A program made the position numbers and the translations under genes. This document shows, one piece after another, positions 42,113 to 54,396 of a DNA stretch of 64,000 nt. Each line of letters opens with the position of its first letter. Position 1 is the first letter of the stretch. Source of the stretch: an uncultured Phocaeicola sp. (lineage in GTDB: Bacteria; Bacteroidota; Bacteroidia; Bacteroidales; Bacteroidaceae); assembly GCA_944321015.1 (NCBI GenBank), contig CALUJS010000002.1, positions 1 through 64,000 of the forward strand, given 5' to 3'. The notes beneath the pieces were generated by a model. That model was not told the DNA's origin. It made no database searches and saw only the letters and a list, made by a program, of their open reading frames with translations.

Positions 42113-43417
42113 ATGGATTTCAAACTGAAAAACGGCTGTGGCAACCTTTCCGCCAAAGGATGCGGCCGACAAGATAACAAACTCAACACTTACGATTGGC
42201 TGGCCGATATACCCGGCAACGAAGACACCTGTGACATGGTGGAAGTGCAATTCAAAAACACACGCAAAGGCTACTATAAGAACAGCAACAAATTGAAGCT
42301 CGAAAAGGGCGATATTGTGGCCGTGGAAGCCAGTCCCGGGCACGACATCGGAACTGTGACCCTCACAGGACGGCTCGTTCCTCTGCAGATGAAGAAAGCC
42401 AACCTCAAGCCGGATGCCGAAATACGTCGCATTTACCGCAAGGCCAAGCCCGTGGACATGGAGAAGTATAACGAAGCAAAGGCAAAAGAACATGACACGA
42501 TGATACGCTCGCGACAGATTGCCGCTGACCTGAAGCTGGATATGAAGATTGGCGACGTGGAATATCAGGGCGACGGCAACAAAGCCATCTTCTACTACAT
42601 TGCTGACGAACGGGTGGATTTCCGGCAGCTCATCAAGGTGCTGGCCGATGCCTTTCATGTACGCATCGAGATGAAACAAATCGGTGCACGTCAGGAGGCC
42701 GGACGCATAGGCGGCATTGGTCCGTGCGGACGTGAATTGTGTTGTGCCACGTGGATGACCAACTTTGTTTCCGTGTCGACCAATGCAGCCCGCATACAGG
42801 ACATCTCGCTCAATCCCCAGAAGTTGGCTGGGCAATGTGCCAAGTTGAAATGTTGTCTTAATTATGAGGTGGATGCTTATGTGGAGAGCTCCAAGCGTAT
42901 GCCGTCGCGTGAAATCACGCTGGAGACCAAGGACGCCACGTATTATTACTTTAAGGCTGATATTCTGAAAGGCATCATCAGCTATTCCACCGACAAAAAC
43001 TTTGCGGCCAATCTGGTTAACATCACGGGGAAACGCGCTTTCGAGGTCATCAATATGAACCGTAACGGCATAAAGCCTGACAGTTTGTCGGAAGATGAAC
43101 ACCAAGGCGAGCCCAAACGTCCCATCGACTTGCTGGAGCAAGAAAGCCTGACCCGCTTCGACAAGGCCAAAAAGAACAAGAAGAAAAAGAAAAGCAATCC
43201 GGCTCAAGCTGAAGGCAAAAAGAACGAGCCGAAAAAGCCGCAGACTGAAGGTAAAAAACAGTCCAACAAGAATCCGCAACAGACGTCGGGCAACCCACAA
43301 CCGGAGCGCAAACCGGGAGGAGGCAACAGCAAGCGACGCCATAAGGAGGGTAACCGGCAACCGCAGGACACGGTCAAAAAACAACAGGCTCCGAATGCGG
43401 ACAATACGCCTCAGTAG
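42113..43417 (+). CDS. RicT/PSP1-domain protein with lysine-rich tail
   Basis: A 434-residue protein of the PSP1/YaaT (RicT) family. The PSP1 core (about 40-290) carries the conserved cysteines GPCGRELCCATWM and AKLKCCLNYE, which in Bacillus RicT take part in Fe-S-binding complexes that affect RNase Y activity. After residue 345 comes a low-complexity tail rich in Lys, Gln, Asn and Pro (KKNKKKKKSNPAQ), typical of Bacteroidetes members and possibly RNA-binding. It lies between holB and gldH, and its TAG is immediately followed by the gldH ATG. Confidence 0.88.
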   Translation: MDFKLKNGCGNLSAKGCGRQDNKLNTYDWLADIPGNEDTCDMVEVQFKNTRKGYYKNSNKLKLEKGDIVAVEASPGHDIGTVTLTGRLVPLQMKKANLKPDAEIRRIYRKAKPVDMEKYNEAKAKEHDTMIRSRQIAADLKLDMKIGDVEYQGDGNKAIFYYIADERVDFRQLIKVLADAFHVRIEMKQIGARQEAGRIGGIGPCGRELCCATWMTNFVSVSTNAARIQDISLNPQKLAGQCAKLKCCLNYEVDAYVESSKRMPSREITLETKDATYYYFKADILKGIISYSTDKNFAANLVNITGKRAFEVINMNRNGIKPDSLSEDEHQGEPKRPIDLLEQESLTRFDKAKKNKKKKKSNPAQAEGKKNEPKKPQTEGKKQSNKNPQQTSGNPQPERKPGGGNSKRRHKEGNRQPQDTVKKQQAPNADNTPQ

Positions 43418-43900
43418 ATGCATCTCGTTACCCAACTGTTGAAGAACATCATCCTGCCGATGGCAATTGTTTTGCTGTCGGCAGGATGTCATGCGCCCGA
43501 AGGATATCATGCCTTCCGTACGTTGCCGGTCGAGGGTTGGACACGGGGTGATACGCTTTGCTTTGCTCTTCCTCGGCAGGCTCATACCGTGTCATGTCGT
43601 GCCACGATCGAAATACGCCACACGGGGCGTTATCCTTACCGTTCGTTGTGGCTTCTTGTAAGTCACAACACAACAGATTCGCTGCAGTTCCGAACCGACA
43701 CCATTGAATGTGCACTCACCGACGCACACGCGCATTTTGATGGCACGGGTGTCAATGACCTTTATCAGAAGTCTTTTCCCTTGTCGCCCATGACCTTGAA
43801 AGCCGGCACCTCACCCATCATACGGGTCGTCCCGTTCATGAAAGACCGCTTCTTGCCCGGCATCACCGATATTGGTGTGCGTCTGACTCCCGCCCCGTAG
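43418..43900 (+). CDS. gldH: GldH-like gliding-motility lipoprotein
   Basis: A 160-residue lipoprotein (lipobox LSAGC, Cys24). The mature part matches GldH: EGYHAFRTLPVEGWTRGDTLCF, RHTGRYPYRSLWLLV and a C-terminal LPGITDIGVRL. GldH is required for gliding in flavobacteria but is also conserved in non-gliding Bacteroides, where its role is unknown. It starts directly at the end of ricT, so translation is coupled. Its stop is only 7 bp from the left direct repeat of the putative island. Confidence 0.9.
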   Translation: MHLVTQLLKNIILPMAIVLLSAGCHAPEGYHAFRTLPVEGWTRGDTLCFALPRQAHTVSCRATIEIRHTGRYPYRSLWLLVSHNTTDSLQFRTDTIECALTDAHAHFDGTGVNDLYQKSFPLSPMTLKAGTSPIIRVVPFMKDRFLPGITDIGVRLTPAP

Positions 43901-43906
43901 AGATAA

Positions 43907-43938
43907 GCCGGGAATAGGGCTCTTGTTCAAAAAGAAAA
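43907..43938. repeat. Left copy of direct repeat flanking the tubulin-like island
   Basis: A 32-nt sequence made of GCCGGGAATAGGGCTC and TTGTTCAAAAAGAAAA. It aligns with 54245-54274 at 28 of 32 columns (two mismatches, two single-base gaps), in the same orientation. It sits just after gldH and at the outer edge of the operon terminator. Confidence 0.7.
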
Positions 43939-43964
43939 GAAGGTGCGCTTTTTGACACACCTTC
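43929..43964 (-). terminator. Terminator of the tubulin-like operon
   Basis: On the minus strand, GAAGGTGTG pairs with CGCACCTTC (43956-43964 and 43939-43947, one G-U) around an 8-nt loop, followed by TTTTCTTTTTG. A strong intrinsic terminator 39 bp after the last gene. Confidence 0.85.
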
Positions 43965-44002
43965 TCCACTTGATTATTTTTTTGCTGCGATGGGGAGAAG
44001 CC

Positions 44003-44773
44003 TCATGCTTCTTCCTTTTCGCTCAACAGTTTCTCCAATTCTTCGTCCGAATAATCTTCCAGCGAACCGCCCTCTTCCTGCGAAGCCAGCAGTTCCTGTG
44101 CCACTTGGGCGGCAGATTTGGTCACTGTTTCGCAGTCCTGATAGGCCGACAGGTCGGCATTGGCGTCAACTGGTATGCCCTCTTCGGTAAAGTCCTTTTG
44201 GTATTGAGCGATGACGCGCAGGCATTCCTTGCGGAGACTCAGTTGTTTTTTCAGTTCCTTGATGTCATTGGTTGAAGCCAGCAGGCCGGTAGCAGCACCG
44301 ATACCGGCACCTATCAGCTTGTCTTTCTTTGAACCGCCTGCAGCCAGTCCGCCCAACAGGCCGGCACCGGTTCCGATGCCCACTTTAGCTATGATAGCAC
44401 CGCCTGACTTCAAGGCAGCCTTGAGGTGCTTGCGGGCTGTGCTGGGGTCACACACTGTACCGTTCTGGTCCACCAGACGGTAGGTCTTGCGGACGGTCTG
44501 GTCTTCGTTGCGGATGGTGTCGCCGTTTGCGTCCGTCTCTATCATTTCCACCACGCTGTACGAGGGCATCGTCTCAATGAGTTGTTTGGCCGAGATACTG
44601 TCTTCGGCAGCAACGGCCGTAGTGTCGGCGTTTTGTTCGCCTCCGCCCACGACACTTTGCACCGTCTCTGTAGCCTTCTTTAGTTTCTTCAAGAATCCCT
44701 GTGCCGAGGCACCCGTTGCGCAGAAGGTCATCAAGGTCAAGATGTAAACACTTCTCAAAATAATGTTTTTCAT
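44003..44773 (-). CDS. Exported glycine-zipper protein, last gene of the tubulin-like operon
   Basis: A 256-residue protein with a signal peptide ending ...ATGASAQ. A middle section (about 125-167) is packed with small residues in a GxxxG-like pattern (GIGTGAGLLGGLAAGG, then GAGIGAATGLLAS), i.e. a glycine zipper that could insert into or oligomerise in a membrane. The last 30 residues are strongly acidic (EEGGSLEDYSDEELEKLL). The first half contains short beta-type segments (YRLVDQNGTVCD). No catalytic motif is seen. It is separated from the upstream gene by 71 bp, the second-largest gap in the operon. Confidence 0.8.
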   Translation of the reverse strand: MKNIILRSVYILTLMTFCATGASAQGFLKKLKKATETVQSVVGGGEQNADTTAVAAEDSISAKQLIETMPSYSVVEMIETDANGDTIRNEDQTVRKTYRLVDQNGTVCDPSTARKHLKAALKSGGAIIAKVGIGTGAGLLGGLAAGGSKKDKLIGAGIGAATGLLASTNDIKELKKQLSLRKECLRVIAQYQKDFTEEGIPVDANADLSAYQDCETVTKSAAQVAQELLASQEEGGSLEDYSDEELEKLLSEKEEA

Positions 44774-44844
44774 ACGTTTAAAAGTTTTAATTGTTAATAT
44801 AATGATTAGTTGTAAATTGCTATGTGCATGAGTTCGGACGTTGA

Positions 44845-46425
44845 TTATTTGGTGTACATTTTCACACGGAACTGCTTCTTCATGTATGTGCCTCGCGCCT
44901 GGTGCATCAAGTCCTCGAAACTCATGTAGACAATTTTCTGGGGCGAATCTTCCTTCGGACGGAAAAGAATGCCCGTAGGCAGGTTGGTGCGGTTCAGTTC
45001 GATTTCGGCAATGCCGTTCTCACCCGATTGGCCCACCTGCTGGAAATTCATCTCCTCCTTCTTCAAGAGACGGCGGAAACGTTTGTCCGACGAGAAACTG
45101 TTAGACGACAGAGGCGTGAATCCCCGGTAAATCCACACCTCGACACCGGGAATTGGATTACCCTCGGAGAAGGTCTTCCACTCGACGAACGTGAATTTTA
45201 CTTGCAAGTCCATGCTCATTAGCAGGCCTTTCATCAATTCGATACGTTTCAGGTAATAGTCGTCCGGATTGAACCGGCGGAGCTGTTCAATGTACTCAAT
45301 GGCGTATGAGGCATACTCGGCCACTTCGGCCTGCGTGGCGTGCCCTTCCTTCTTCATCTTGGCAATTTGCTGGAAGCAACGGGCGGTGAGGTTGTCATAG
45401 TACGCACACGAGTCGCACAGCGAGATGGCGGCCCGGATGTTCGGCCGGAGGTCGGATACAACCGATTCACCCGTCTGTAGTGCTTTGTCATAGGCGGCGC
45501 GGGCCTGCTTGTACTTGCGCATTCCGAAGAGGCGGCTACCCTCGTCCATTAGGGCGCAGCACTGGCTGGTGAATACCTCCGTTTCCATCACGATGGGCAG
45601 GACAACGTAGCGGCGCAGGATGCGGGGTTTCAGGTCGCCTATGTAGATGGACAGCAAGTTGGTACCATCGCCGTAGATCGTCACATTGGAGAGGTTGGCT
45701 AGGTACATTTGGGTTTCCTCCAGTTTTCGGTCGACTCTTTCAATTTCATCCCATTCGGGCGCATTCTCGGCTAATTGGCCTGAATCCATGATCTTGTCCA
45801 ACTCGGCTTGACGTTTCTGCAATTTATCCAGTTGGTCTCGCACCTCGTCTAGCTTGGCCACGGGTATGACAACGCTCACTTTCAATAGGGAGGCGTCTTC
45901 TGGGCTTTCCTTCATGGTGATGCGTGCACCCAAGTCGGACGGGCATTTCACTTGCAGTGATTTCAGCGTGGATGTAAACTCTAGAGCGGCTTCGGTCTCG
46001 CTTTTATAGACATCGTTCACCATAGTCTGGTCGTCGTAGCGGATGGGGTTGGCCACTTCTTCCAGGCGGTAGGCCTGCAGATAGTCCGTAGCGTTCAGCG
46101 AGGCCAGTAACGGGGCGCGGTAGGGGTTGCCCATACGGCTTACCTCCAGCTTGGGCTGTTTGGTGTCGCGCACGTCGATGATGACGTAATAACGGTAGTT
46201 CCCGTCTGAGTCCTTTCCGCGGAGGTCTACGGTGGCAGGAAATGCCTTGTTGACTACGACGATGACCAGATCTTTGTGCTTCGATAATATGAGTACGCCT
46301 CGGTTGCCTCCCAAGTCCTCAAAACAGTCGTCTTCCGGCGAACGATTCAGTTCGTTGGTACCCAACTGCGCCCACGTAGGCAGGGCCAGCAGGCAGAGGA
46401 ATATCATCCAAAGTATTCGTTTCAT
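44845..46425 (-). CDS. Large exported protein of the tubulin-like operon
   Basis: A 526-residue protein with a signal peptide (MKRILWMIFLCLLALPTWAQ). The N-terminal third is strand-rich (GVLILSKHKDLVIVVVN, YYVIIDVRDTKQPKLEV). A charged coiled-coil-like helix follows at about 195-245 (LDEVRDQLDKLQKRQAELDK). Then comes a TPR-like segment (EGSRLFGMRKYKQARAAYDKAL) and a C-terminal beta region. It resembles a periplasmic scaffold; I know of no named family. It lies 25 bp after the NTF2-like gene. Confidence 0.8.
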   Translation of the reverse strand: MKRILWMIFLCLLALPTWAQLGTNELNRSPEDDCFEDLGGNRGVLILSKHKDLVIVVVNKAFPATVDLRGKDSDGNYRYYVIIDVRDTKQPKLEVSRMGNPYRAPLLASLNATDYLQAYRLEEVANPIRYDDQTMVNDVYKSETEAALEFTSTLKSLQVKCPSDLGARITMKESPEDASLLKVSVVIPVAKLDEVRDQLDKLQKRQAELDKIMDSGQLAENAPEWDEIERVDRKLEETQMYLANLSNVTIYGDGTNLLSIYIGDLKPRILRRYVVLPIVMETEVFTSQCCALMDEGSRLFGMRKYKQARAAYDKALQTGESVVSDLRPNIRAAISLCDSCAYYDNLTARCFQQIAKMKKEGHATQAEVAEYASYAIEYIEQLRRFNPDDYYLKRIELMKGLLMSMDLQVKFTFVEWKTFSEGNPIPGVEVWIYRGFTPLSSNSFSSDKRFRRLLKKEEMNFQQVGQSGENGIAEIELNRTNLPTGILFRPKEDSPQKIVYMSFEDLMHQARGTYMKKQFRVKMYTK

Positions 46426-46450
46426 GTCGGTAAGTATAAAGGTTTAGCAA

Positions 46451-47470
46451 TCAGAGGTCAAAGGCACCCAAGGTGGAAATGTCGTTGTCCGGCTGCTGGT
46501 GTACGTCGCCCACCCATTCGGGCTGCCAGGTGCGTACGTGTATGATTGGGTCGCCACCGTCATCTGGAAATTCCCACAGTAGGAAGAGGTAGCCCTCGTC
46601 GCTATATGTGCTTGACGACCATTCCTGGTGCAAGCGCACGCCGTACATGTTAGGGTCGACTTTTGAGCGGGTAATGCCAGCGCAGCCGCCCTCTTCTCCG
46701 TTGTCGCCGATTTCGCTGAACTTGACGTTAATCCACTTGTTGCGCAGAAAGGCTTTTTTCAGGTTGCGGATGTACTGCTCTTTGTTTTGCTTGGTGTATT
46801 CCACCTTTTGCGACACAAAGTTGTTGTCGGCACTGGGACGGACGGTGACAACCTTACCGGTGATGATGAGCGCGTCATCGCTGAAGTAGCGGTTAATCAC
46901 GTCGATGTCCTTCTGGTTGTAGGCCGTGCGGAAGCGTTCAATCTGCTGCATGATAATCATCTGCTTTTCCTTTTCCACCACGCTGCCACAGTGTTCTAGG
47001 CTTTCGGAAAGCTGGGCGTCTAGGGCGAGGCGAAAATCGGTCAATTTGCCTTGGGAGTCAAATTCGACTATGGCTTCCTGATAGGTCCCCATGCCGAAGT
47101 CCTCGCCTTCGGGTGTAATAATCAATGGAATGTGGCTCACCATCATTGAGCCGTCCTTGAATACCCAGCAGCGTTCCACTACTTCTTCGTCGTCGCAGTA
47201 GAACGGTGTGACGGCCCACAGGCGCAAGAGCGAGCGCAGTGAGAACTCGTCCATTGGTAGGCTGTTTGTCGTCAGAATTTCCTTGGCCTGCTGGGCGCGA
47301 TTGATTTCGGTCAGCACTTGGGCCAGATTGCGTTGGGCAGCCTCTAAGCCGATAGGGCAGTCCACGCCTTCGTCGACAGTGAGGGTGACCTCCACCGCTT
47401 TACAGTCGGTTGCTCCCCATATCCCTATCAGGGCCATGGCGAGCATTGCACGTATCAGTATTCTCTTCAT
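46451..47470 (-). CDS. Exported protein with NTF2/SnoaL-like domain
   Basis: A 339-residue protein with a signal peptide ending near DCKA. The region from about 175 to the end resembles an NTF2/SnoaL-like cone fold: RFRTAYNQKDIDVINRYFSDDALIITG, followed after an insertion by strands LHQEWSS, YLFLLWEF and HVRTWQPEW. The first half is helical. NTF2-like domains bind small ligands or act as protein-interaction modules; no catalytic residues are evident. It is the fifth main gene downstream from the GTPase end of the operon. Confidence 0.78.
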   Translation of the reverse strand: MKRILIRAMLAMALIGIWGATDCKAVEVTLTVDEGVDCPIGLEAAQRNLAQVLTEINRAQQAKEILTTNSLPMDEFSLRSLLRLWAVTPFYCDDEEVVERCWVFKDGSMMVSHIPLIITPEGEDFGMGTYQEAIVEFDSQGKLTDFRLALDAQLSESLEHCGSVVEKEKQMIIMQQIERFRTAYNQKDIDVINRYFSDDALIITGKVVTVRPSADNNFVSQKVEYTKQNKEQYIRNLKKAFLRNKWINVKFSEIGDNGEEGGCAGITRSKVDPNMYGVRLHQEWSSSTYSDEGYLFLLWEFPDDGGDPIIHVRTWQPEWVGDVHQQPDNDISTLGAFDL

Positions 47471-47499
47471 ATTTTTGTTGTGTTATTAATATCGTAATG

Positions 47500-48180
47500 T
47501 CATTCCACCTCTACGCCGATGGCGCCGCAACCACGGTAGTTGGCTACGCTGTCGGATTGGTTGGTCTTCACATTGAGGCGGTCGGGACCGGGTGTCAGTA
47601 TGGCGACGACTTTAGCTTCCTTGTTGTAGATAATCAGGTAGTACTTGTCGGGGTTGTCCAGCGAGGCGTAACGGTCGTATCCTTTAATTTTGCCTTCGCC
47701 CTCCATCTGTTTCACCTTCTCGGCCATGGCATAGTAGTCCGTAATCCCGGCCAACAGATTGATGGCTTCGGGTAAGACGGGTTGCAGCTTTTTTTCGACG
47801 GCCGGACGATTCTCATTCTCAATGACGACGGCGTTGTCGGTGGCGATAATATCTTTTTTTCGGACGTAGACGAAGTAGCGGAACATGTTGGTGCCGCGCG
47901 GCATGGACAGCGGAGTCCACAGTTCTTTGCGGTTGTTGACCACCAGATTGGCGCTGTCATTCATTTTCCTTTGGGTAGCTACCCACTTGTTTACCTCGTC
48001 GAATAAGCGCTCTTCGGCATAGATACGGGCATCTTCTTCAGTAGGAGCCGTAGACTCTGCGTAGATGTACTGCGAACTCTTCTTGATTTTATTTATCTGC
48101 TTCTTGATATCGTCGGTTGTCTGCCCCAGCGCGGTGGTCAGGGAGAGGAAGCAGAGGGTGATGGATAGTAGTATTCTCAT
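47500..48180 (-). CDS. Exported protein of unknown function, tubulin-like operon
   Basis: A 226-residue protein with a signal peptide (MRILLSITLCFLSLTTALGQ). The mature start is a basic helix (DDIKKQINKIKKSSQYIYAE), then an acidic helix (EEDARIYAEERLFDEVNKWV). This order, a Tyr/Glu-rich strand followed by a helix annotated in other proteins as LPP20- or DUF-like, is suggestive only. The C-terminal half is beta-rich and ends ANYRGCGAIGVEVE. It lies 11 bp after the preceding gene and was surely co-transcribed. Confidence 0.75.
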   Translation of the reverse strand: MRILLSITLCFLSLTTALGQTTDDIKKQINKIKKSSQYIYAESTAPTEEDARIYAEERLFDEVNKWVATQRKMNDSANLVVNNRKELWTPLSMPRGTNMFRYFVYVRKKDIIATDNAVVIENENRPAVEKKLQPVLPEAINLLAGITDYYAMAEKVKQMEGEGKIKGYDRYASLDNPDKYYLIIYNKEAKVVAILTPGPDRLNVKTNQSDSVANYRGCGAIGVEVE

Positions 48181-48191
48181 TGCACTATTAA

Positions 48192-49304
48192 CTATGGGTT
48201 ATTCATGAAAAAGTTTTCGGTGACGTTCTGCAAGGGGGTGAAAGCGTAGAGTGTTCCCGCCATGATGCTGTTGCCCTGCAGCACGCTGTATGGCACAATT
48301 AAGCTGAGCGTGTGGCAGTAGGCCAGTTTGGTATTCACGGCAAAGAGTGTAGCGGACACGCCGGTGTCAGTGCGCTCTTTGATGCCCAGGTAGAGACGGC
48401 AGCCTGTGGTGTTGCAATAATGGACGAACTGCTGGAGGGTGACGGACAGAGGTTTGCGAATGCCTCCATACTTGTCGAGTGTCAGGCGCAGGGAGACCAT
48501 ATGTCGGGCGCACCCCGTCAGTAGCAGGTTGTTGAGGGCTTGGTTGGGATGTGTGGGGTCTGTCAGGATGCGGTAACCGCCGGGACACGTATCGTCGGGG
48601 CATAAGTAAAGTCGTGCACATATCAGGTCACAGAGGAACGTCCCGCCGTCGGCCACGGCCACGTTGTCCGCTGTCGAGACGGGGCAACTGCGCCAGGCTT
48701 CGGGCACAGTGTCGACCGGTAGGGCAGAGGCGGTGCGCTGGAGGTCGCGTTCGAGCATCTCTTCCAACTCGATCAGGTTGGCGCCCAGAAGAGTCTGACA
48801 GTCGGCGGAGATGCGGAGGGAGACCTGTCCGCTGCCTTTGCCCCACTCCATTAGGTAGGTCCTGCGTTCCTGCTCGTTGAGACTGAAGGGTGTCTCGGGC
48901 GTCAAAGTCTTGAGCATGGTGGCGTTGCCTTTCAGGAAGATAATGTCTTTCCGACTGGTGGCTTCGGCTTTGTCTTCGGGTTTCAAAACGTCCTCTTCGA
49001 GGGCGTAGCGTTCGATGAAGTCGAGCACAGGTCGGACATCGTGGGCTGCCGCCCAAGCGCTGTCGAAGAGCTTGTAGCCGATGTGTGACACGTCGCCATA
49101 GGCATTGGTGCGCACGCGCAGGCTGCGGCCGCGATAACTCCACGTCGCGTCATAATCTGCATCTGGTTCCAGCTTGTCCGGTAGGTTCAGCCCGATGCTG
49201 TGGGCCAAGCGCTCCAGATTAGGCACTTGGTAAGTGGGGGTAGCATTCACCGCCAAGGTGAACACTACCCATAACCATACCATATGGCAACGCAGGGACG
49301 TCAT
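48192..49304 (-). CDS. Exported protein of unknown function, tubulin-like operon
   Basis: A 370-residue protein with a hydrophobic leader (CHMVWLWVVFTLAVNA) that is probably a signal peptide. It has eight or more cysteines in the mature part (for example CDLICARLYLCPDDTCPGG), suggesting disulphides in the periplasm. Early sequence WSYRGRSLRVRTNAYGDVSHIGYKLF is strand-like. No recognised domain. Its start overlaps the upstream MORN-protein gene by 4 bp (ATGA), so the two are translationally coupled. Confidence 0.75.
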   Translation of the reverse strand: MTSLRCHMVWLWVVFTLAVNATPTYQVPNLERLAHSIGLNLPDKLEPDADYDATWSYRGRSLRVRTNAYGDVSHIGYKLFDSAWAAAHDVRPVLDFIERYALEEDVLKPEDKAEATSRKDIIFLKGNATMLKTLTPETPFSLNEQERRTYLMEWGKGSGQVSLRISADCQTLLGANLIELEEMLERDLQRTASALPVDTVPEAWRSCPVSTADNVAVADGGTFLCDLICARLYLCPDDTCPGGYRILTDPTHPNQALNNLLLTGCARHMVSLRLTLDKYGGIRKPLSVTLQQFVHYCNTTGCRLYLGIKERTDTGVSATLFAVNTKLAYCHTLSLIVPYSVLQGNSIMAGTLYAFTPLQNVTENFFMNNP

Positions 49305-49915
49305 GGCTTCACGACAGTCTGGTTCCCATCGTGTTTCCAGTAGCCCAGGCCGCTGATGCGCCCGTCGCGGAACTCACCTTCGAAAGTGTCGCCGGGCTGT
49401 GCCACGAAATCTTTCGAGGAGACGATTTTGTGTTCCTGTTTGTAGGTGATGGTGCCGTAGCCATGAGGCTTGCCGTTCTTCAGTTCGCCGGTGTAAGAGC
49501 CGTAGCCTAGGTCGACGGTACCGCGTTTGGAGTCTGCCTGGGAAGCTTTAGGTTTGGGCGCGGGGACTTCGGGTTCCGGGTTTTCGGGAGCGACGACTGC
49601 AGTGTTGACGGGTGCTGGAGAAGCAACCGTTTTCGGTTCTTCCACAACAGGCTTGGGCTCTTCGCCCGCATTCAAGTAGGAGTAGACGCCATAGCCTCCA
49701 CCGCCTAATATGACAGCAGCCGCGACAATCAAAGCAATCTTCTTCCCATTACCGTTGCCTTCGTCGTTGTTGTTCTTGTTTTTATGTTTGCCCGCAGCTT
49801 CACGCAAGGGCTGGTGGCAGTAAGGGCATTCGAACTCCCCGCCTGCTTCAATCTCAAAAACTTCTTTGTAGTGGTCGCAATCGATGTTTGCGCATGCACC
49901 TGTTTTCTTTGCCAT
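49301..49915 (-). CDS. Zinc-ribbon / transmembrane / MORN-repeat protein
   Basis: A 204-residue bitopic membrane protein. Cytoplasmic N-terminus: a zinc ribbon with Cys8, Cys13, Cys30 and Cys33 (CANIDC, CPYC). One transmembrane helix is at about 59-81 (ALIVAAAVILGGGGYGVYSYL), then a Pro/Glu/Ala-rich linker (about 85-130) and at least two MORN-type repeats (YGSYTGELKNGKPHGYGTI and FEGEFRDGRISGLGYWK). MORN repeats in other systems bind lipid or protein at membranes. This layout could tie the cytoplasmic GTPase to exported partners; that is inference. Confidence 0.88.
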   Translation of the reverse strand: MAKKTGACANIDCDHYKEVFEIEAGGEFECPYCHQPLREAAGKHKNKNNNDEGNGNGKKIALIVAAAVILGGGGYGVYSYLNAGEEPKPVVEEPKTVASPAPVNTAVVAPENPEPEVPAPKPKASQADSKRGTVDLGYGSYTGELKNGKPHGYGTITYKQEHKIVSSKDFVAQPGDTFEGEFRDGRISGLGYWKHDGNQTVVKP

Positions 49916-49934
49916 ATTCGAAATGTTTATTTAG

Positions 49935-50099
49935 TTATGATTCTGATTCCTTTTCTTGTTGCAATCCTTCTTTTAGTGAAAGTGGCTTGCGTACTCCGAA
50001 CAGTAAGGGCACCTCGTCTTCTTTCAGTTCGGATGAAGCGTGGCCACCATGCGGACGCAGCAAAATCCCGACGCACGGCAGCCCGGAAGACGTGTGCAT
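49935..50099 (-). CDS. Probable small ORF coupled to the tubulin-like gene (TGATG)
   Basis: A 54-codon frame whose ATG shares its A with the TGA stop of the tubulin-like gene (TGATG), the classic coupling overlap. It reads MHTSSGLPCVGILLRPHGG, then ELKEDEVPLLFGVRKPLSL and a charged end (KEGLQQEKESES). It fills most of an otherwise unexplained 183-bp gap in a tightly packed operon. No family is recognised. A chance frame of this length is possible. Confidence 0.5.
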   Translation of the reverse strand: MHTSSGLPCVGILLRPHGGHASSELKEDEVPLLFGVRKPLSLKEGLQQEKESES

Positions 50100-53000
50100 C
50101 AGGAGATGCGCATATCGTCGTCGCAGAGCTTCTCGGCCGCCTTGTTGAAGGCCACGAAGACCGGGTTGTTCTCGTTACCGTTGACCAGCGGGAGCAGGAC
50201 GTTGTCGAGAGTTTCGCCCAGTTTCAGCATCAGTTGCTTGCGCTTCTCAATGTGCTTGTAGTTGGTGTCCATTTCCTCGATGACGGTTTTCTTCAGTGCG
50301 GCGGCATCCATGGCGCGGGTCATCTTGCTCAGTTCCTTGAGGGTGGAAACGATGTCTTCTCCGACAGGAATCCAGCGGCTGACGCGGCCCATGCGGTTCT
50401 TCTCGCCGGCAAAGCACATGGTCTTCTCGCCAGTTTCGGGGTCTTCGCGGGGTACGATGATACCGTCCAAGGTGTAGGCCATGAGGACAATCGGCATGAG
50501 GTCTTTCTCGGACTCTTCCTTGTTGCGGTTGAACAACCCCGGCAGTGGCTTGGCGAAACTTTCGGTGTGCACCACCATGCGGTTGACCTCGTTGCGGGTC
50601 AGGATGTCGTACTTCTCTTTCAGCACGCGCACGTTGTCGACGTAGCGCAGGGGGAATCCGCTGTGTGCGGTGATGACAACTATCTGATTACTCTTGAAGT
50701 TGACCGACACGTCGTTGTTCTTGTTGAACGGAATGGTTCCCGATTCGCCGAAGTCCTTGATGAAATCGTTGCGGAAGGTGTCGTCTTCTTCGTAGAGCGG
50801 CAGCGAAATTTGGATGATTTTCTGGTGGTTGGCAGCTGTTTCGGGGCTACCCTTTCCTTCTTCCGAACCGTTGAAGGTCAGGAAACTTTGGGCGGCGTTG
50901 TAGATTTCCTTGACGAAACGTTTGCGCTTTTCGGGCGTGCTGCAGTCGGAGTTGCGCAATTTGTCGAGGATGTTGACATTGACGAGGCGCATATTCGCGT
51001 TCTTCTTGGAGTATTCGTTCAGTTCGGCGCGCGACTGCTCTATGCAGACCTTCAGTGTCACTTCTTGCAGGGTGCTGAGGTTCATCTTTTTGGCCAAGGT
51101 GCTGAAAGAGGCGTTGGCGGCACCCACGGCTTTCACGATGTCGGCGCGCAGGCTGGCGGCGTGCTGTCGCTGGTTTTCTTGATTCTTGAGGAATCCTAGC
51201 ACTGTTTCGCGCACTTGACGCGGGTCGTATTCCTTGACGACTTCGCCCCGCATGTCGTTCTCATCGGCATCGCTCAACTTGCACTTGTCTTCCGCTTGTT
51301 TCTTCATGATATCAGCAAACTCCTCGTATACCCGCATCAGCGGTTCCACGCTGTTGGCGTTGAGGAGCGTCAACATGTTCACCACCTCGAACAGTAGTTT
51401 GACGGCATAGCTGTAGGCAGTGATGGTGGTCATCAGCGTCAGTTGCTCGCGTTTGGCGTCGGCAAAGCGGCCAAACGTCTTGGTAGAGGCGTTGGTGACA
51501 GCATCGCGCAGCCAACCGATGTTGTTCCAGTCGCGGCGGATGTCCTCCAACTGGGCGTTCAGGTCTTCGTTGAGATAGGCCGTGCGCTTGTTGATCTTCT
51601 GTTTGTATTGGTCGATGCGCTCCTCGCACTTGGCCGATAGAACCTTGATGTATTTGTGCACTTCGATGATTGACAGTTCGCCCACTTTCCATTTGGCAAA
51701 CAGGTTGTTCTCGATGCGGCGGCAAATCTCTTCGGCAAACCCTCCGATTTGCGACTCGTAGTTGGCATAGAATTTTTTCACGCCGCATCCCCGGTACATG
51801 CTGTCGAAGAAGTTCGTGCACAGTTGGTTGAACTCTTCGTACCATTCTTTCTTGGGGCATTCGGCCTGTACGTCCTGTTTGTAGCGGTCGACATACATTT
51901 CCCAACCTTGCACGATGGGCTTCCAGTTGGCGACGTGCTTCTCGATGGAAGGCAGTGGTTTGCTCAGGGTCAGGTATTCTTCACTTAGCAAGTTGCTCTC
52001 CAATTCGGCGCTTTTCTCCACCAATTCCACATAGTCCTTGCCGACCATGTCTTCCGCACACTCAATGTATCCTCGGGCATCGTCCCACAGTCCGTATAGC
52101 ATTTGCATGGATGCCTGACGGGCTAAGTGATAGGCTCCGTACTCGACGACTTCTGTCTCGGGATATTCAATACGCTTCACGCCAAAGGTCATGAATTTGC
52201 GGCTGTGGACAGCCTCGCCCGCTTCGTTGGCTTCGGGCAGGAGGCCGTTGTTTTCATTCGTCTCCAGACGCGCCATCTTTCCGCCGTTCATTGCCGAAAC
52301 AACAATCTTCTGGAACAGGAAGTCGCCCACGATGTTCGGCAGGACGTCGAACAGATTAACTTCTTTGCCAGCCTCATTGACGTTCGTATAGAGGTAGGCC
52401 ATGTCGAAGGCGTCCTGTCCTTTCAACAAGCGGCGCACGTTGCCATACTCGTCAGTGTTGCCCTTTACGTCGGTGGGGAAATAACGTCCCACAGACATGG
52501 CGTTCAGCTCCAACAGGGCGGCATAGCCGTTAGGCTGGTAGAAGCGGTTGCTGTCTTCGCCGCCGGTGATTTGGATAATCTTCTCGGGAACGTAGAGGTA
52601 AAGCTGGATTTTGAACTTGCTGCGGTCGTCGCCCGTGCGCTGGAACTCGTTGCGGATTTGCGTCACGGCGTCTATGATGGACCCGGAACCCGTGCCGCCA
52701 CCCAGTCCGGCACAAATGTGGAAAGTCACGTCGTCCACGTTCTCCTGTTCCTTCAACGCCCTTACGCGGGCATGTACCTGCCCGATGAACGTGTTCTGCG
52801 GCAAGCCGCACATGTTGTTGGCGATTAGCATGCGGCCGAATCTTCTGCGCTGTCCGCCGATGCCTTCGTTGATGATGGCGCCGATGCCTTCCTTCAGCAA
52901 AGCCTCGTCGCGACGGTTGATGAAAGCGTTAATACCGGGATATTGGTCGAGATTGTCCAGCACGCCGGCACCAATGCCGTTGATGGATAAGCGCTGGGCG

Positions 53001-53203
53001 GGCGACAACTGCACCGATGTGCCCAGCACCTGCCAACGTTCTTCGTTGTTCAGGTCGGTCAGACTCGAATCGACGTACAGGTACTCGATGTGAGCATCGC
53101 CTTCCGGGGTGTTCGAGCGAAATTCTTCGTAAATACGTTTACGCAAAGCGCACAAGACAGAACCGCCCGTGCCTCCTAATCCGATAACTAAATGGTTTGC
53201 CAT
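50099..53203 (-). CDS. Tubulin/FtsZ-superfamily GTPase (Tubulin_2 / FtsZl1-like)
   Basis: A 1034-residue cytoplasmic protein. The N-terminal 300 residues are a tubulin/FtsZ-type GTPase domain: first glycine loop HLVIGLGGTGGSV (4-16), then YVDSS, and the diagnostic phosphate loop GGGTGSG (168-174) in CAGLGGGTGSGSIIDAV. A segment EVNLFDVLPNIVGDF is the best candidate for the catalytic T7 region but is not certain. About 330-820 is mostly long charged helices; the end is mixed. FtsZ is about 350-400 residues, so this belongs to the large bacterial branch, Tubulin_2 or FtsZl1, which has been predicted to act in membrane remodelling. It is second in the operon, after a membrane protein. Confidence 0.9.
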   Translation of the reverse strand: MANHLVIGLGGTGGSVLCALRKRIYEEFRSNTPEGDAHIEYLYVDSSLTDLNNEERWQVLGTSVQLSPAQRLSINGIGAGVLDNLDQYPGINAFINRRDEALLKEGIGAIINEGIGGQRRRFGRMLIANNMCGLPQNTFIGQVHARVRALKEQENVDDVTFHICAGLGGGTGSGSIIDAVTQIRNEFQRTGDDRSKFKIQLYLYVPEKIIQITGGEDSNRFYQPNGYAALLELNAMSVGRYFPTDVKGNTDEYGNVRRLLKGQDAFDMAYLYTNVNEAGKEVNLFDVLPNIVGDFLFQKIVVSAMNGGKMARLETNENNGLLPEANEAGEAVHSRKFMTFGVKRIEYPETEVVEYGAYHLARQASMQMLYGLWDDARGYIECAEDMVGKDYVELVEKSAELESNLLSEEYLTLSKPLPSIEKHVANWKPIVQGWEMYVDRYKQDVQAECPKKEWYEEFNQLCTNFFDSMYRGCGVKKFYANYESQIGGFAEEICRRIENNLFAKWKVGELSIIEVHKYIKVLSAKCEERIDQYKQKINKRTAYLNEDLNAQLEDIRRDWNNIGWLRDAVTNASTKTFGRFADAKREQLTLMTTITAYSYAVKLLFEVVNMLTLLNANSVEPLMRVYEEFADIMKKQAEDKCKLSDADENDMRGEVVKEYDPRQVRETVLGFLKNQENQRQHAASLRADIVKAVGAANASFSTLAKKMNLSTLQEVTLKVCIEQSRAELNEYSKKNANMRLVNVNILDKLRNSDCSTPEKRKRFVKEIYNAAQSFLTFNGSEEGKGSPETAANHQKIIQISLPLYEEDDTFRNDFIKDFGESGTIPFNKNNDVSVNFKSNQIVVITAHSGFPLRYVDNVRVLKEKYDILTRNEVNRMVVHTESFAKPLPGLFNRNKEESEKDLMPIVLMAYTLDGIIVPREDPETGEKTMCFAGEKNRMGRVSRWIPVGEDIVSTLKELSKMTRAMDAAALKKTVIEEMDTNYKHIEKRKQLMLKLGETLDNVLLPLVNGNENNPVFVAFNKAAEKLCDDDMRIS

Positions 53204-53242
53204 ATCTTATACATTATTATAATATTACATTTACAAATAAAA

Positions 53243-53851
53243 TCAAAAATCATCGTAGCGTTTGGGACGCGCCTTGTGACGACGGCTGCTGCCAGTACGT
53301 CCGGTGCGCGATGAACTTGTCCGTCGACTGCCGCGCCCGGTTTGCTCCATCGTCTTGATGACCACGAAAGATGCCATGACGACAAACAATGCACTCCAAC
53401 CCACACGCCGCCAGATGAAACGCGTCATGTAAGTACGTAACTCGTCGGCCATGGCCGAAGCGATGTTCAACGGCGTATGGCCTGTAAAGTCGGTCCCGCC
53501 GATAAAGTATCCGACCAGCGGCCATTCGTCTTGTATCAGTTTTAAAATGCCTTGACTGTCATCTTCGTCAAACTCCACATATTCGGGCACGTCACGCACC
53601 CAGCCATTGATGGCTGTTTCGACATCGGTGCTATATGACCGTATGGTGACGGCTCCGCAAAGCAAGATGGCTTGGAACGACAGAAACAGGAACAGGACGG
53701 CCCCCGTCACGTAGCTGACGATTGTGAACGTGCGCTGCGAGAACCATGAATGGATAATGAAAAACATCAGGGCAACACCGATGGCCGTCAGCAATATTCC
53801 CAGAAAGAGATTGCCGATGGAATAAGAGATGATATTGAACAAAGCTCCCAT
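53243..53851 (-). CDS. Three-helix membrane protein with basic C-terminal tail
   Basis: A 202-residue inner-membrane protein, first gene of the operon. Likely TM helices are at 12-37 (LGILLTAIGVALMFFII), 42-70 (VTGAVLFLFLSFQAILL) and 150-168 (GWSALFVVMASFVVIKTM). The loop between the second and third (about 80 residues, acidic) should be on one face. The last 35 residues are very basic and Ser/Arg-rich (GRGSRRTSSSRTGRTGSSRR) and probably cytoplasmic, suited to binding acidic protein surfaces or lipid heads. I infer a membrane anchor for the GTPase encoded 39 bp downstream. Confidence 0.82.
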   Translation of the reverse strand: MGALFNIISYSIGNLFLGILLTAIGVALMFFIIHSWFSQRTFTIVSYVTGAVLFLFLSFQAILLCGAVTIRSYSTDVETAINGWVRDVPEYVEFDEDDSQGILKLIQDEWPLVGYFIGGTDFTGHTPLNIASAMADELRTYMTRFIWRRVGWSALFVVMASFVVIKTMEQTGRGSRRTSSSRTGRTGSSRRHKARPKRYDDF

Positions 53852-53907
53852 AAGATGGCAGTGTTTAAAATGACACTTACTAAATCGTTAACTTAACTCT
53901 AACGCCA

Positions 53908-53915
53908 CAAAGGTA
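53908..53915 (-). promoter_or_regulatory. -7 box of the tubulin-like operon
   Basis: Minus-strand TACCTTTG, 56 bp upstream of the first gene. The nearest TTTG (53931-53934) is only 15 nt away, so the -33 element is unclear. The rest of 53852-54003 is AT-rich with no gene seen. Confidence 0.5.
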
Positions 53916-54003: not shown

Positions 54004-54177
54004 CTAGCTGCTTGTACCTTTCTTGAAATTGCCACTACGCGTAAGGTCTATTGGTTTGATAAATAGACTAGTAGACAATCTCTTTACTTTACGATTAAGG
54101 GTAAAACGCAATTTGACGTTGTAAGTTCCATCGGTTTTCTGCTCGTTCTTCTTGATTTCCGCCTTGATAGTCAACAT
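54004..54177 (-). pseudogene. Truncated tyrosine recombinase: Arm DNA-binding domain only
   Basis: A 57-codon frame: MLTIKAEIKKNEQKTDGTYN, then VKLRFTLNRKVKRLSTSLFI and DLTRSGNFKKGTSS, then TAG. This matches the start of Bacteroidetes tyrosine integrases (Arm_DNA-bind_5: strand, DGTYNVxIRxTxNRKxKxxSTSxFV, then LTxSGxIKN). The core-binding and catalytic domains (R..H-x-x-R..Y) are absent, and nothing similar follows downstream. It lies between tRNA-His and the operon, the usual place for an integrase of a tRNA-integrated element. Confidence 0.82.
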
Positions 54178-54244
54178 TTTAAACTAAGAATTAATTAGTC
54201 AACAACTGGCGGAAAGTACTTGTAAATGCAGTCTCGAATGGTAG

Positions 54245-54274
54245 GCCGGAATAGGACTTTTGTCAAAAAGAAAA
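54245..54274. repeat. Right copy of direct repeat flanking the tubulin-like island
   Basis: GCCGGAATAGGACTTT followed by TGTCAAAAAGAAAA, aligned with 43907-43938 at 28 of 32 columns. It is directly next to the tRNA-His terminator stem, including its T-run. Confidence 0.7.
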
Positions 54275-54309
54275 ATCGCCAAATCTTTTTAAATCAAAGA
54301 CTTGGCGAT
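54265..54309 (-). terminator. Terminator of tRNA-His
   Basis: On the minus strand, ATCGCCAAGTCT pairs with AGATTTGGCGAT (12 bp, one G-U; plus coordinates 54298-54309 and 54275-54286) and is followed by TTTTCTTTTTG, 12 bp after the tRNA. Confidence 0.88.
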
Positions 54310-54321
54310 AACTTCTTTCCG

Positions 54322-54396
54322 GGTGGCAGATGGGACTCGAACCCACGACATTCAGAACCACAATCTGACGCTCTAACCAACTGAACTACAGCCACC
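54322..54396 (-). tRNA. tRNA-His (anticodon GTG)
   Basis: Cloverleaf read on the minus strand: acceptor GTGGCTG with CTGCCAC plus the extra G-1 opposite C73 that marks tRNA-His, D arm GTTCAGTTGGTTAGAGC, anticodon stem TCAGA/TCTGA with loop TTGTGGT (anticodon GTG), and T arm GTGGGTTCGAGTCCCAT. CCA is not encoded, consistent with the CCA-adding enzyme in the window. One odd point is an apparent U6-U67 mismatch in the acceptor stem. Confidence 0.93.

Follow-up and report, generated by a model that had tools for sequence, protein, structure and literature searches.

How a tubulin-like GTPase of the cytoplasm might act together with proteins that are exported from it is the question raised by an operon in an uncultured Phocaeicola sp. 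(assembly GCA_944321015.1, contig CALUJS010000002.1). The window, as we use the term here, is the whole stretch analysed, 64,000 nucleotides in length, and the operon consists of eight minus-strand reading frames between positions 53851 and 44003, g1 to g8, all of them present as an earlier note on this DNA had described them. FtsZl1 proteins, of which one comes from Bacteroides caccae, have been published before, together with the proposal that they belong to a multicomponent membrane system (Makarova & Koonin 2010, PMC2875224), as has the objection, raised by a reviewer of that study, that an FtsZ-like protein of the cytoplasm could not act together with partners in the periplasm or outer membrane. 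This branch of the tubulins has stood without a function, and under that objection, since 2010. In the present operon the third gene, g3, is best read as a transmembrane adaptor linking two exchangeable cassettes, since its zinc-ribbon half tracks the tubulin gene while its MORN half tracks the exported genes.

The eight genes form a recurring unit, beyond chance. The complete set was present in 18 fetched loci carrying a Tubulin_2 gene (PF13809, the family of g2) and g1-g6 in five further loci; gene order is constant across loci whose flanks are unrelated, which bears out the earlier note's expectation of conserved neighbours, and g7-g8 is the part most often absent. The unit was also encountered outside the taxonomic family, elsewhere in the order (L121 and L124; L-numbers denote compared loci), and g1 was seen in Tubulin_2 loci only. 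The Tubulin_2 gene is nevertheless accessory and patchy within the family, because a Tubulin_2 protein above the curated cut-off was found in only 38 of the 301 genomes examined from this family.

The assignment of g2 (50099-53203, minus strand; 1034 residues) to the tubulin/FtsZ relatives is well founded. It matches Tubulin_2 at 170 bits against a cut-off of 27 (E 1.1e-49, residues 5-364), with a T1 motif GLGGTGG at residues 8-14 and a T4 motif GGGTGSG at residues 168-174 (LGGGTGSGS, 167-175). A GTPase domain (~1-370) is followed by a helical or coiled insertion (~385-785) and a putative tubulin C-terminal domain (~790-930). An AlphaFold2 model built with 31 homologues (mean pLDDT, the per-residue confidence score, 85.6) was matched by Foldseek to tubulins, CetZ, TubZ, BtubA and FtsZ (best E 8e-6), and VIA-align superposed it on CetZ with a Z of 26.4 (308 residues, 3.5 Å) and on tubulins with a Z of 23-26 (~350 residues, 3.4-4 Å). 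The two outcomes which the earlier note had named as fatal to its proposal, a g2 lacking any match to the tubulin fold and neighbours never conserved, were both checked and neither was observed.

Similarity of FtsZl1 to tubulin had previously been traced only to helix H5, the T6-H7 region and a C-terminal counterpart having gone undetected (PMC2875224). The range aligned by VIA-align runs from residue 1 to ~893 of the g2 model and from 1 to ~430 of tubulin, which indicates that the counterpart of the tubulin C-terminal domain is furnished by modelled residues ~790-890, lying past the ~400-residue helical stretch; beyond the coil the structure is alpha/beta, and by range it aligns with the tubulin C-terminal region. 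The model thereby suggests that the tubulin fold of g2 is complete but interrupted by a helical insertion of ~400 residues. By eye, T6-like residues N274/N276 and a helix at 288-305 with a conserved D294 stand at the expected T6 and H7 places, and a motif E-N-x-D-x-F-x-x-E, at residues 317-324 and held by most members, stands at the expected T7 place, a mapping of T6, H7 and T7 which we infer from sequence. At several loci a second Tubulin_2-related gene precedes the main one (L075:7087-9411, L076:6980-9304, L011:7805-9964 and L013:6764-9349). In L075 and L076 it encodes 774 residues and has lost both the T1 and T4 motifs; the L011 copy retains T1 without T4, and that of L013 is partly altered. 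These are possible pseudo-GTPase partners, either members of a non-equivalent, alpha/beta-like subunit pair or regulators. Taken together, a predicted full tubulin fold with its ~400-residue insertion and pseudo-tubulin paralogs bring both filament formation and the pairing of non-equivalent subunits within reach of testing.

The adaptor g3 (49301-49915, minus strand; 204 residues) combines a cytoplasmic zinc ribbon, in which C8, C13, C30 and C33 are invariant, with a single transmembrane (TM) segment at ~60-78 and a periplasmic MORN region at ~138-185 (Pfam E 6.9e-5). Hydrophobic, TM and signal-peptide calls for g1, g3 and g4-g8 are here those of crude hydropathy and not of SignalP. The adaptor's MORN region is predicted to lie extracytoplasmically because some adaptors hold a Big_2 Ig domain between TM segment and MORN, and because the MORN proteins found beside the module in L141, L142 and L175 have lipoprotein-like N-termini and lack the cytoplasmic part. 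A CxN/S-C-CxxC ribbon with a TM segment was found in all ~36 adaptors adjoining this type of Tubulin_2, and the ribbon in 0 of 9 MORN adaptors without tubulin, both counts including related genomes; the zinc finger of L140, one such locus, differs. Among the ~36 are adaptors in which the ribbon-TM half, beside Tubulin_2, has a PBP-OmpA end, in another Bacteroidota class (L133), or a TPR end, on a betaproteobacterial (Paraburkholderia) plasmid (L192). Conversely, kinase-TM-MORN adaptors (L129, L154 and L155; Pkinase E 5e-28 to 2e-30) and TIR-TM-MORN adaptors (L117 and L130; TIR_2 E 5e-6 and 3e-14) occur beside g6, mostly with g4. A Zot-like match of g3 in PHROGs was dismissed as spurious, and PHROGs gave no other match.

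Pairwise identities were compared by Mantel correlation over 19 loci. Tubulin and g6 identities were uncorrelated (r 0.05, p 0.23). The ribbon half of g3 correlated with tubulin at r 0.67 as against 0.22 with g6, whereas the MORN half correlated with g6 at 0.76 as against 0.03 with tubulin. The exported genes g4, g5, g7 and g8 tracked g6 (r 0.58-0.87), and g1 likewise lay nearer to g6 (0.54) than to tubulin (0.18). The Mantel and tree sets contain related genomes, and the result stood after removal of near-duplicates, with partial correlations of 0.65 for ribbon and tubulin (p 0.0004) and 0.72 for MORN and g6 (p 0.0002). In a sliding window along g3, the tubulin signal was lost at about residues 60-72, in the TM segment, and that of g6 set in around residue 121; the switch point between the halves thus appears to lie around the TM segment and linker. 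The tubulin clade uniting the window with L010-L013, L015 and L046 was rejected by the g6 data (approximately unbiased, or AU, test, p 1e-129) and the exported-module clade by the tubulin data (AU test, p 2e-62), the tubulin tree being one with long branches obtained by a quick method. Relative to the window, L013 is 81% identical in tubulin and 34% in g6; L047 is 25% identical in tubulin, 70% in g6 and 82% in the MORN half. Sequence comparison thus demonstrates that tubulin and exported genes have been re-assorted, with the seam in g3. On the evidence of this co-variation, exchange in which the docking half is kept would imply that g3 has a physical interface on either side. An adaptor with separately inherited halves answers the objection of 2010 in a concrete and testable form, and it names two binding interfaces.

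A free-standing zinc-ribbon fragment was noted at L010:13243-13417 (E 8e-16), between the tubulin gene and a complete g3. The g2-g3 gap in the window, which at 183 base pairs is the exception among intergenic distances otherwise of -4 to 71 base pairs, matches the end of this stretch. Fragment and gap are plausibly the scar of a cassette exchange; the fragment itself is probably such a scar, or else a tiny extra subunit.

All five of g4-g8 have hydrophobic, signal-peptide-like N-termini, in agreement with the five signal-peptide proteins of the earlier note. The first, g4 (48192-49304, minus strand; 370 residues), matches no known family; its AlphaFold2 model is confident, and a fold assignment was attempted and abandoned (Foldseek E ≥ 0.066, Z ≤ 6), the C-terminal part being weakly NTF2-like only. 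An LPP20-like N-terminal domain is recognised in g5 (47500-48180, minus strand; 226 residues) by way of g5-g6 fusion proteins, that of L105 matching LPP20 with E 8.9e-7. The best conserved exported component is g6 (46451-47470, minus strand; 339 residues), and its profiles find the exported module widely without tubulin. The NTF2-like fold and the glycine zipper which the earlier note had read in two of these proteins were both seen, as weak matches: the C-terminal half of g6 is NTF2/SnoaL-like (DUF4440, E 0.0012, under the Pfam cut-off), and g8 (44003-44773, minus strand; 256 residues) holds a glycine-zipper segment with E 0.046. Between them lies g7 (44845-46425, minus strand; 526 residues), with an N-terminal beta domain, a TPR segment and a C-terminal domain; some of its counterparts end in PEGA (E 1e-22) or in what by eye is a barrel-like C-terminus, and these ends suggest the outer-membrane side. 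Sequence searches of the PDB with g4, g5, g6 and g7 profiles gave nothing useful.

Exported proteins of ~600 residues in which g5-like LPP20 and g6-like NTF2 domains are fused (L105, L106, L108-L120 and L123) are widespread in Bacteroidales. The existence of these fusions suggests mutual binding of g5 and g6. In L140, a protein of 814 residues (L140:845-3289) with a zinc ribbon and an HG...EACYGG pattern replaces tubulin upstream of the exported module, and a zinc-ribbon coiled protein of 733 residues (L140:3282-5483) also lies upstream of it. A caspase/gingipain-like (clan CD) identity for the 814-residue protein was considered by eye only, had no Pfam or PDB sequence match, and was not counted.

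The remaining gene, g1 (53243-53851, minus strand; 202 residues), encodes a membrane protein that has three hydrophobic regions and, at its C-terminus, a tail that varies between loci. The earlier note was accurate as to the three regions and to a basic tail in the window (charge +8); the tail is not conserved, being acidic or absent in L046, L059, L067 and L068. The idea that the tail is a docking site for the GTPase was rejected, given its lack of conservation and the fact that g1 tracks the exported genes. The note's broader proposal, that a cytoplasmic GTPase is linked to an exported assembly, is supported, with the zinc ribbon, TM segment and MORN of g3 as the route in place of the basic tail of g1.

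How such a link might operate can be outlined, and from the sequences we infer physical binding, filament formation, a direction of signalling and a biological purpose in the following form. Inside the cell g2, as a GTP-dependent member of the tubulin family, would assemble or switch state, and would dock onto g3, binding the zinc ribbon of this one-pass adaptor. The periplasmic MORN end of g3 would hold, or be read by, a complex of g4-g8, with g1 alongside in the inner membrane, such that GTP-driven assembly of g2 could affect, or be affected by, the state of the outer envelope. The best-supported element of this scheme is that g3 tethers the tubulin to the exported complex and passes state across the inner membrane; that g1-g8 as a whole constitute an envelope-spanning coupling device is a proposal on which we find ourselves evenly divided. 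The cytoplasmic end would be a plug-in, the tubulin and its zinc ribbon being swapped as a cassette and a Ser/Thr kinase or TIR domain taking that place elsewhere. In the most likely reading, something at the cell surface is sensed, or else scaffolded, by the exported part, and the cytoplasmic part serves as a switchable output.

Several observations weigh against this proposal. The ribbon half of g3 is short, at only ~44 residues, which leaves little sequence behind its correlation with tubulin, and some correlation with g6 persists, though a weaker one (partial r 0.34). The T7-like loop is degenerate (E-T-N-E-N-N) in the group to which the window belongs. Finally, L126-L128 and L144-L152 contain g4, g6 and a g7-like protein and have no adaptor or cytoplasmic component; the module exists there in a stand-alone exported form, and the exported part can thus work without this coupling.

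One tentative extension is a trans-envelope receptor platform of the Bacteroidota, in which an exported sensor or scaffold and a MORN TM adaptor would serve interchangeable outputs (a tubulin-type polymer, a Ser/Thr kinase, TIR, perhaps a caspase-like protease) and the tubulin polymer would be induced by something that happens at the envelope, which could be phage attack or contact. If all three outputs, tubulin, kinase and TIR, are indeed served by the exported module, this module would represent a general platform for inside-outside coupling in common gut bacteria. A machine for membrane remodelling or envelope shaping is likewise conceivable, with some hesitation on our part: g2 filaments on the inner membrane would be anchored by g3 and g1 while the exported proteins shape the periplasm or outer membrane (vesicles, a surface organelle, motility), and the kinase and TIR versions would represent regulators that an otherwise structural module has borrowed. 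The seemingly complete tubulin fold and long coiled insertion of g2, the structural appearance of the PEGA, TPR and glycine-zipper proteins, the OmpA in the adaptor of a relative, the link of the cyanobacterial protein Sll0445 to pili and the FtsZl1 proposal of 2010 (PMC2875224) all accord with it. Replacement of the cytoplasmic part by a kinase or TIR would, however, be odd for a structural machine, and the patchy, accessory distribution also counts against this reading.

The setting of the operon is that of a genomic island. It lies downstream of a tRNA-His gene (54321-54395, minus strand), which adjoins the insertion, and between this gene and g1 sits a remnant of the island, a truncated tyrosine-integrase N-terminus (54004-54177, minus strand; Arm-DNA-bind_5, Pfam E 5.4e-6). 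In nine further genomes of this genus the tRNA-His gene adjoins the PGA_cap gene, a pairing which is ancestral in the genus. On the far side of the operon the opposite-strand neighbour is gldH, which in relatives is located elsewhere; a link to GldH and gliding was rejected, since in relatives a long distance separates gldH from the PGA_cap gene and their adjacency is therefore not ancestral. Among g1-g8 there are no homologues of Gld, Spr or Por proteins (gliding and type IX secretion), the opposite-strand neighbour GldH being the only one. An imperfect repeat, TTTTCTTTTTGA..AA..CCTATTCC, occurs at both ends of the island (54240-54275 and 43900-43938, minus strand) and is not in the repeat listing; it could mark the ends of the insertion.

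In near relatives, with tubulins 94% identical, the unit adjoins an integrase (L014), AbiE genes (L009) or tRNA-Met (L010). Tubulin is 94% identical where a core protein (PSP1-like, 42113-43417) is 73-76% identical, and 38-39% identical in a genome of the same genus where that protein is 79% identical. Because tubulin identity does not track host relatedness, sequence comparison establishes that the unit moves horizontally and that transfer is frequent. Such transfer, together with the island context, would be expected of mobile genes that merely travel together and share no machine, an explanation to which we give very little credence, given that gene order has survived deep divergence amid unrelated flanks, that g3 co-varies half by half and that g5-g6 fusions exist. 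Phage or plasmid cargo was rejected, with no phage records and a single plasmid match, 28% identical, from Paraburkholderia; the g6 profile had no match in viral contigs.

Mobility of this kind also raises the matter of defence. In an anti-phage or other conflict system, attack on the envelope would be detected by the exported part, upon which the tubulin, kinase or TIR plugged in at the cytoplasmic end would trigger a protective or abortive response. A patchy, mobile island with traces of integrase is in keeping with this, as are TIR and kinase partners typical of bacterial immunity, the AbiE toxin-antitoxin genes that adjoin g1 in L009, and the classification of related tubulin/GTPase systems as conflict systems (Kaur et al. 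2020, PMC7159879). We nonetheless consider it unlikely. Identity with a known defence system was rejected, as no PADLOC-DB model was matched by g1-g8 beyond one spurious match (E 0.038), and enrichment of defence genes in the flanks was likewise rejected, the AbiE pair being the sole convincing match among 90 flanking proteins. The unit is not in phage records, and this operon contains no effector enzyme. The earlier note's remark that no catalytic effector is obvious thus holds for this operon, and requires amendment for its relatives, whose adaptors carry kinase or TIR domains.

Signals at the ends of the operon were located where the note had reported a promoter box and a terminator. A Bacteroidota -7 box, TACCTTTG, is a candidate promoter at 53908-53915 (minus strand); boxes of this form number 42 in the window against 19 in shuffles, ~2x, and the spacing of the -33 TTTG is not the usual one. 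A hairpin resembling an intrinsic terminator, with 13 pairs and a T tract, lies at 43936-43967 (minus strand).

Comparison with known systems places the operon within a described family while setting it apart in composition. The only experimental study of a Tubulin_2 protein that we found concerns Synechocystis Sll0445, which interacts with pilus-assembly proteins and is associated with impaired phototaxis (PMC9880817). Sll0445-Sll0447 likewise place Tubulin_2 in a membrane-linked gene cluster; they differ in partners annotated as FtsA-like and DivIC-like and in their link to phototaxis and pili, and a MORN adaptor is not reported. The tubulin conflict systems of GAP1-N2 type (PMC7159879) share a tubulin with a coiled-coil extension, membrane-associated partners and swappable components. 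However, no DO-GTPase or GAP1 genes were found among g1-g8 by Pfam and NCBIfam, the tubulin subtype of those systems is described there as restricted to Firmicutes and Actinobacteria, and the text of that paper does not mention MORN. Within the same family, type II Tubulin_2 loci (L051, L052, L061, L062, L070, L072 and L084) also combine Tubulin_2 with exported partners, but feature large papain-type or vWA proteins and, by eye, exported vWA-like proteins, and lack g3-g8; their arrangement is nearer to the description of 2010 than is that of g1-g8.

With regard to the FtsZl1 systems themselves (PF13809; PMC2875224), g2 is a member of the family, and the operon shares with them the GGGTGSG motif, a long coiled region, membrane and exported genes, and OmpA in a relative of g3. 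The layout expected of FtsZl1, an FtsZ-like N-terminal domain followed by an extended coiled coil and a mostly helical C-terminal domain, is that of g2, and a conventional FtsZ exists alongside and separately in this genome (one PF00091 protein, from a 431-residue frame on contig 22). The vWA protein and P-loop GTPase that are typical, though not defining, neighbours of FtsZl1 are absent from this operon, neither being found among the Pfam and NCBIfam matches of g1-g8. In the literature searched, which did not cover the supplement of the 2010 paper, we found neither the MORN adaptor nor the exported set described, nor the exchange of these between tubulin, kinase and TIR. Relative to the systems described in 2010 the operon differs in a g2 model suggesting that a tubulin C-terminal domain is present, in a distinct Bacteroidota set of exported proteins (MORN, LPP20, NTF2, TPR and glycine zipper), and in an adaptor that is two-ended and exchangeable.

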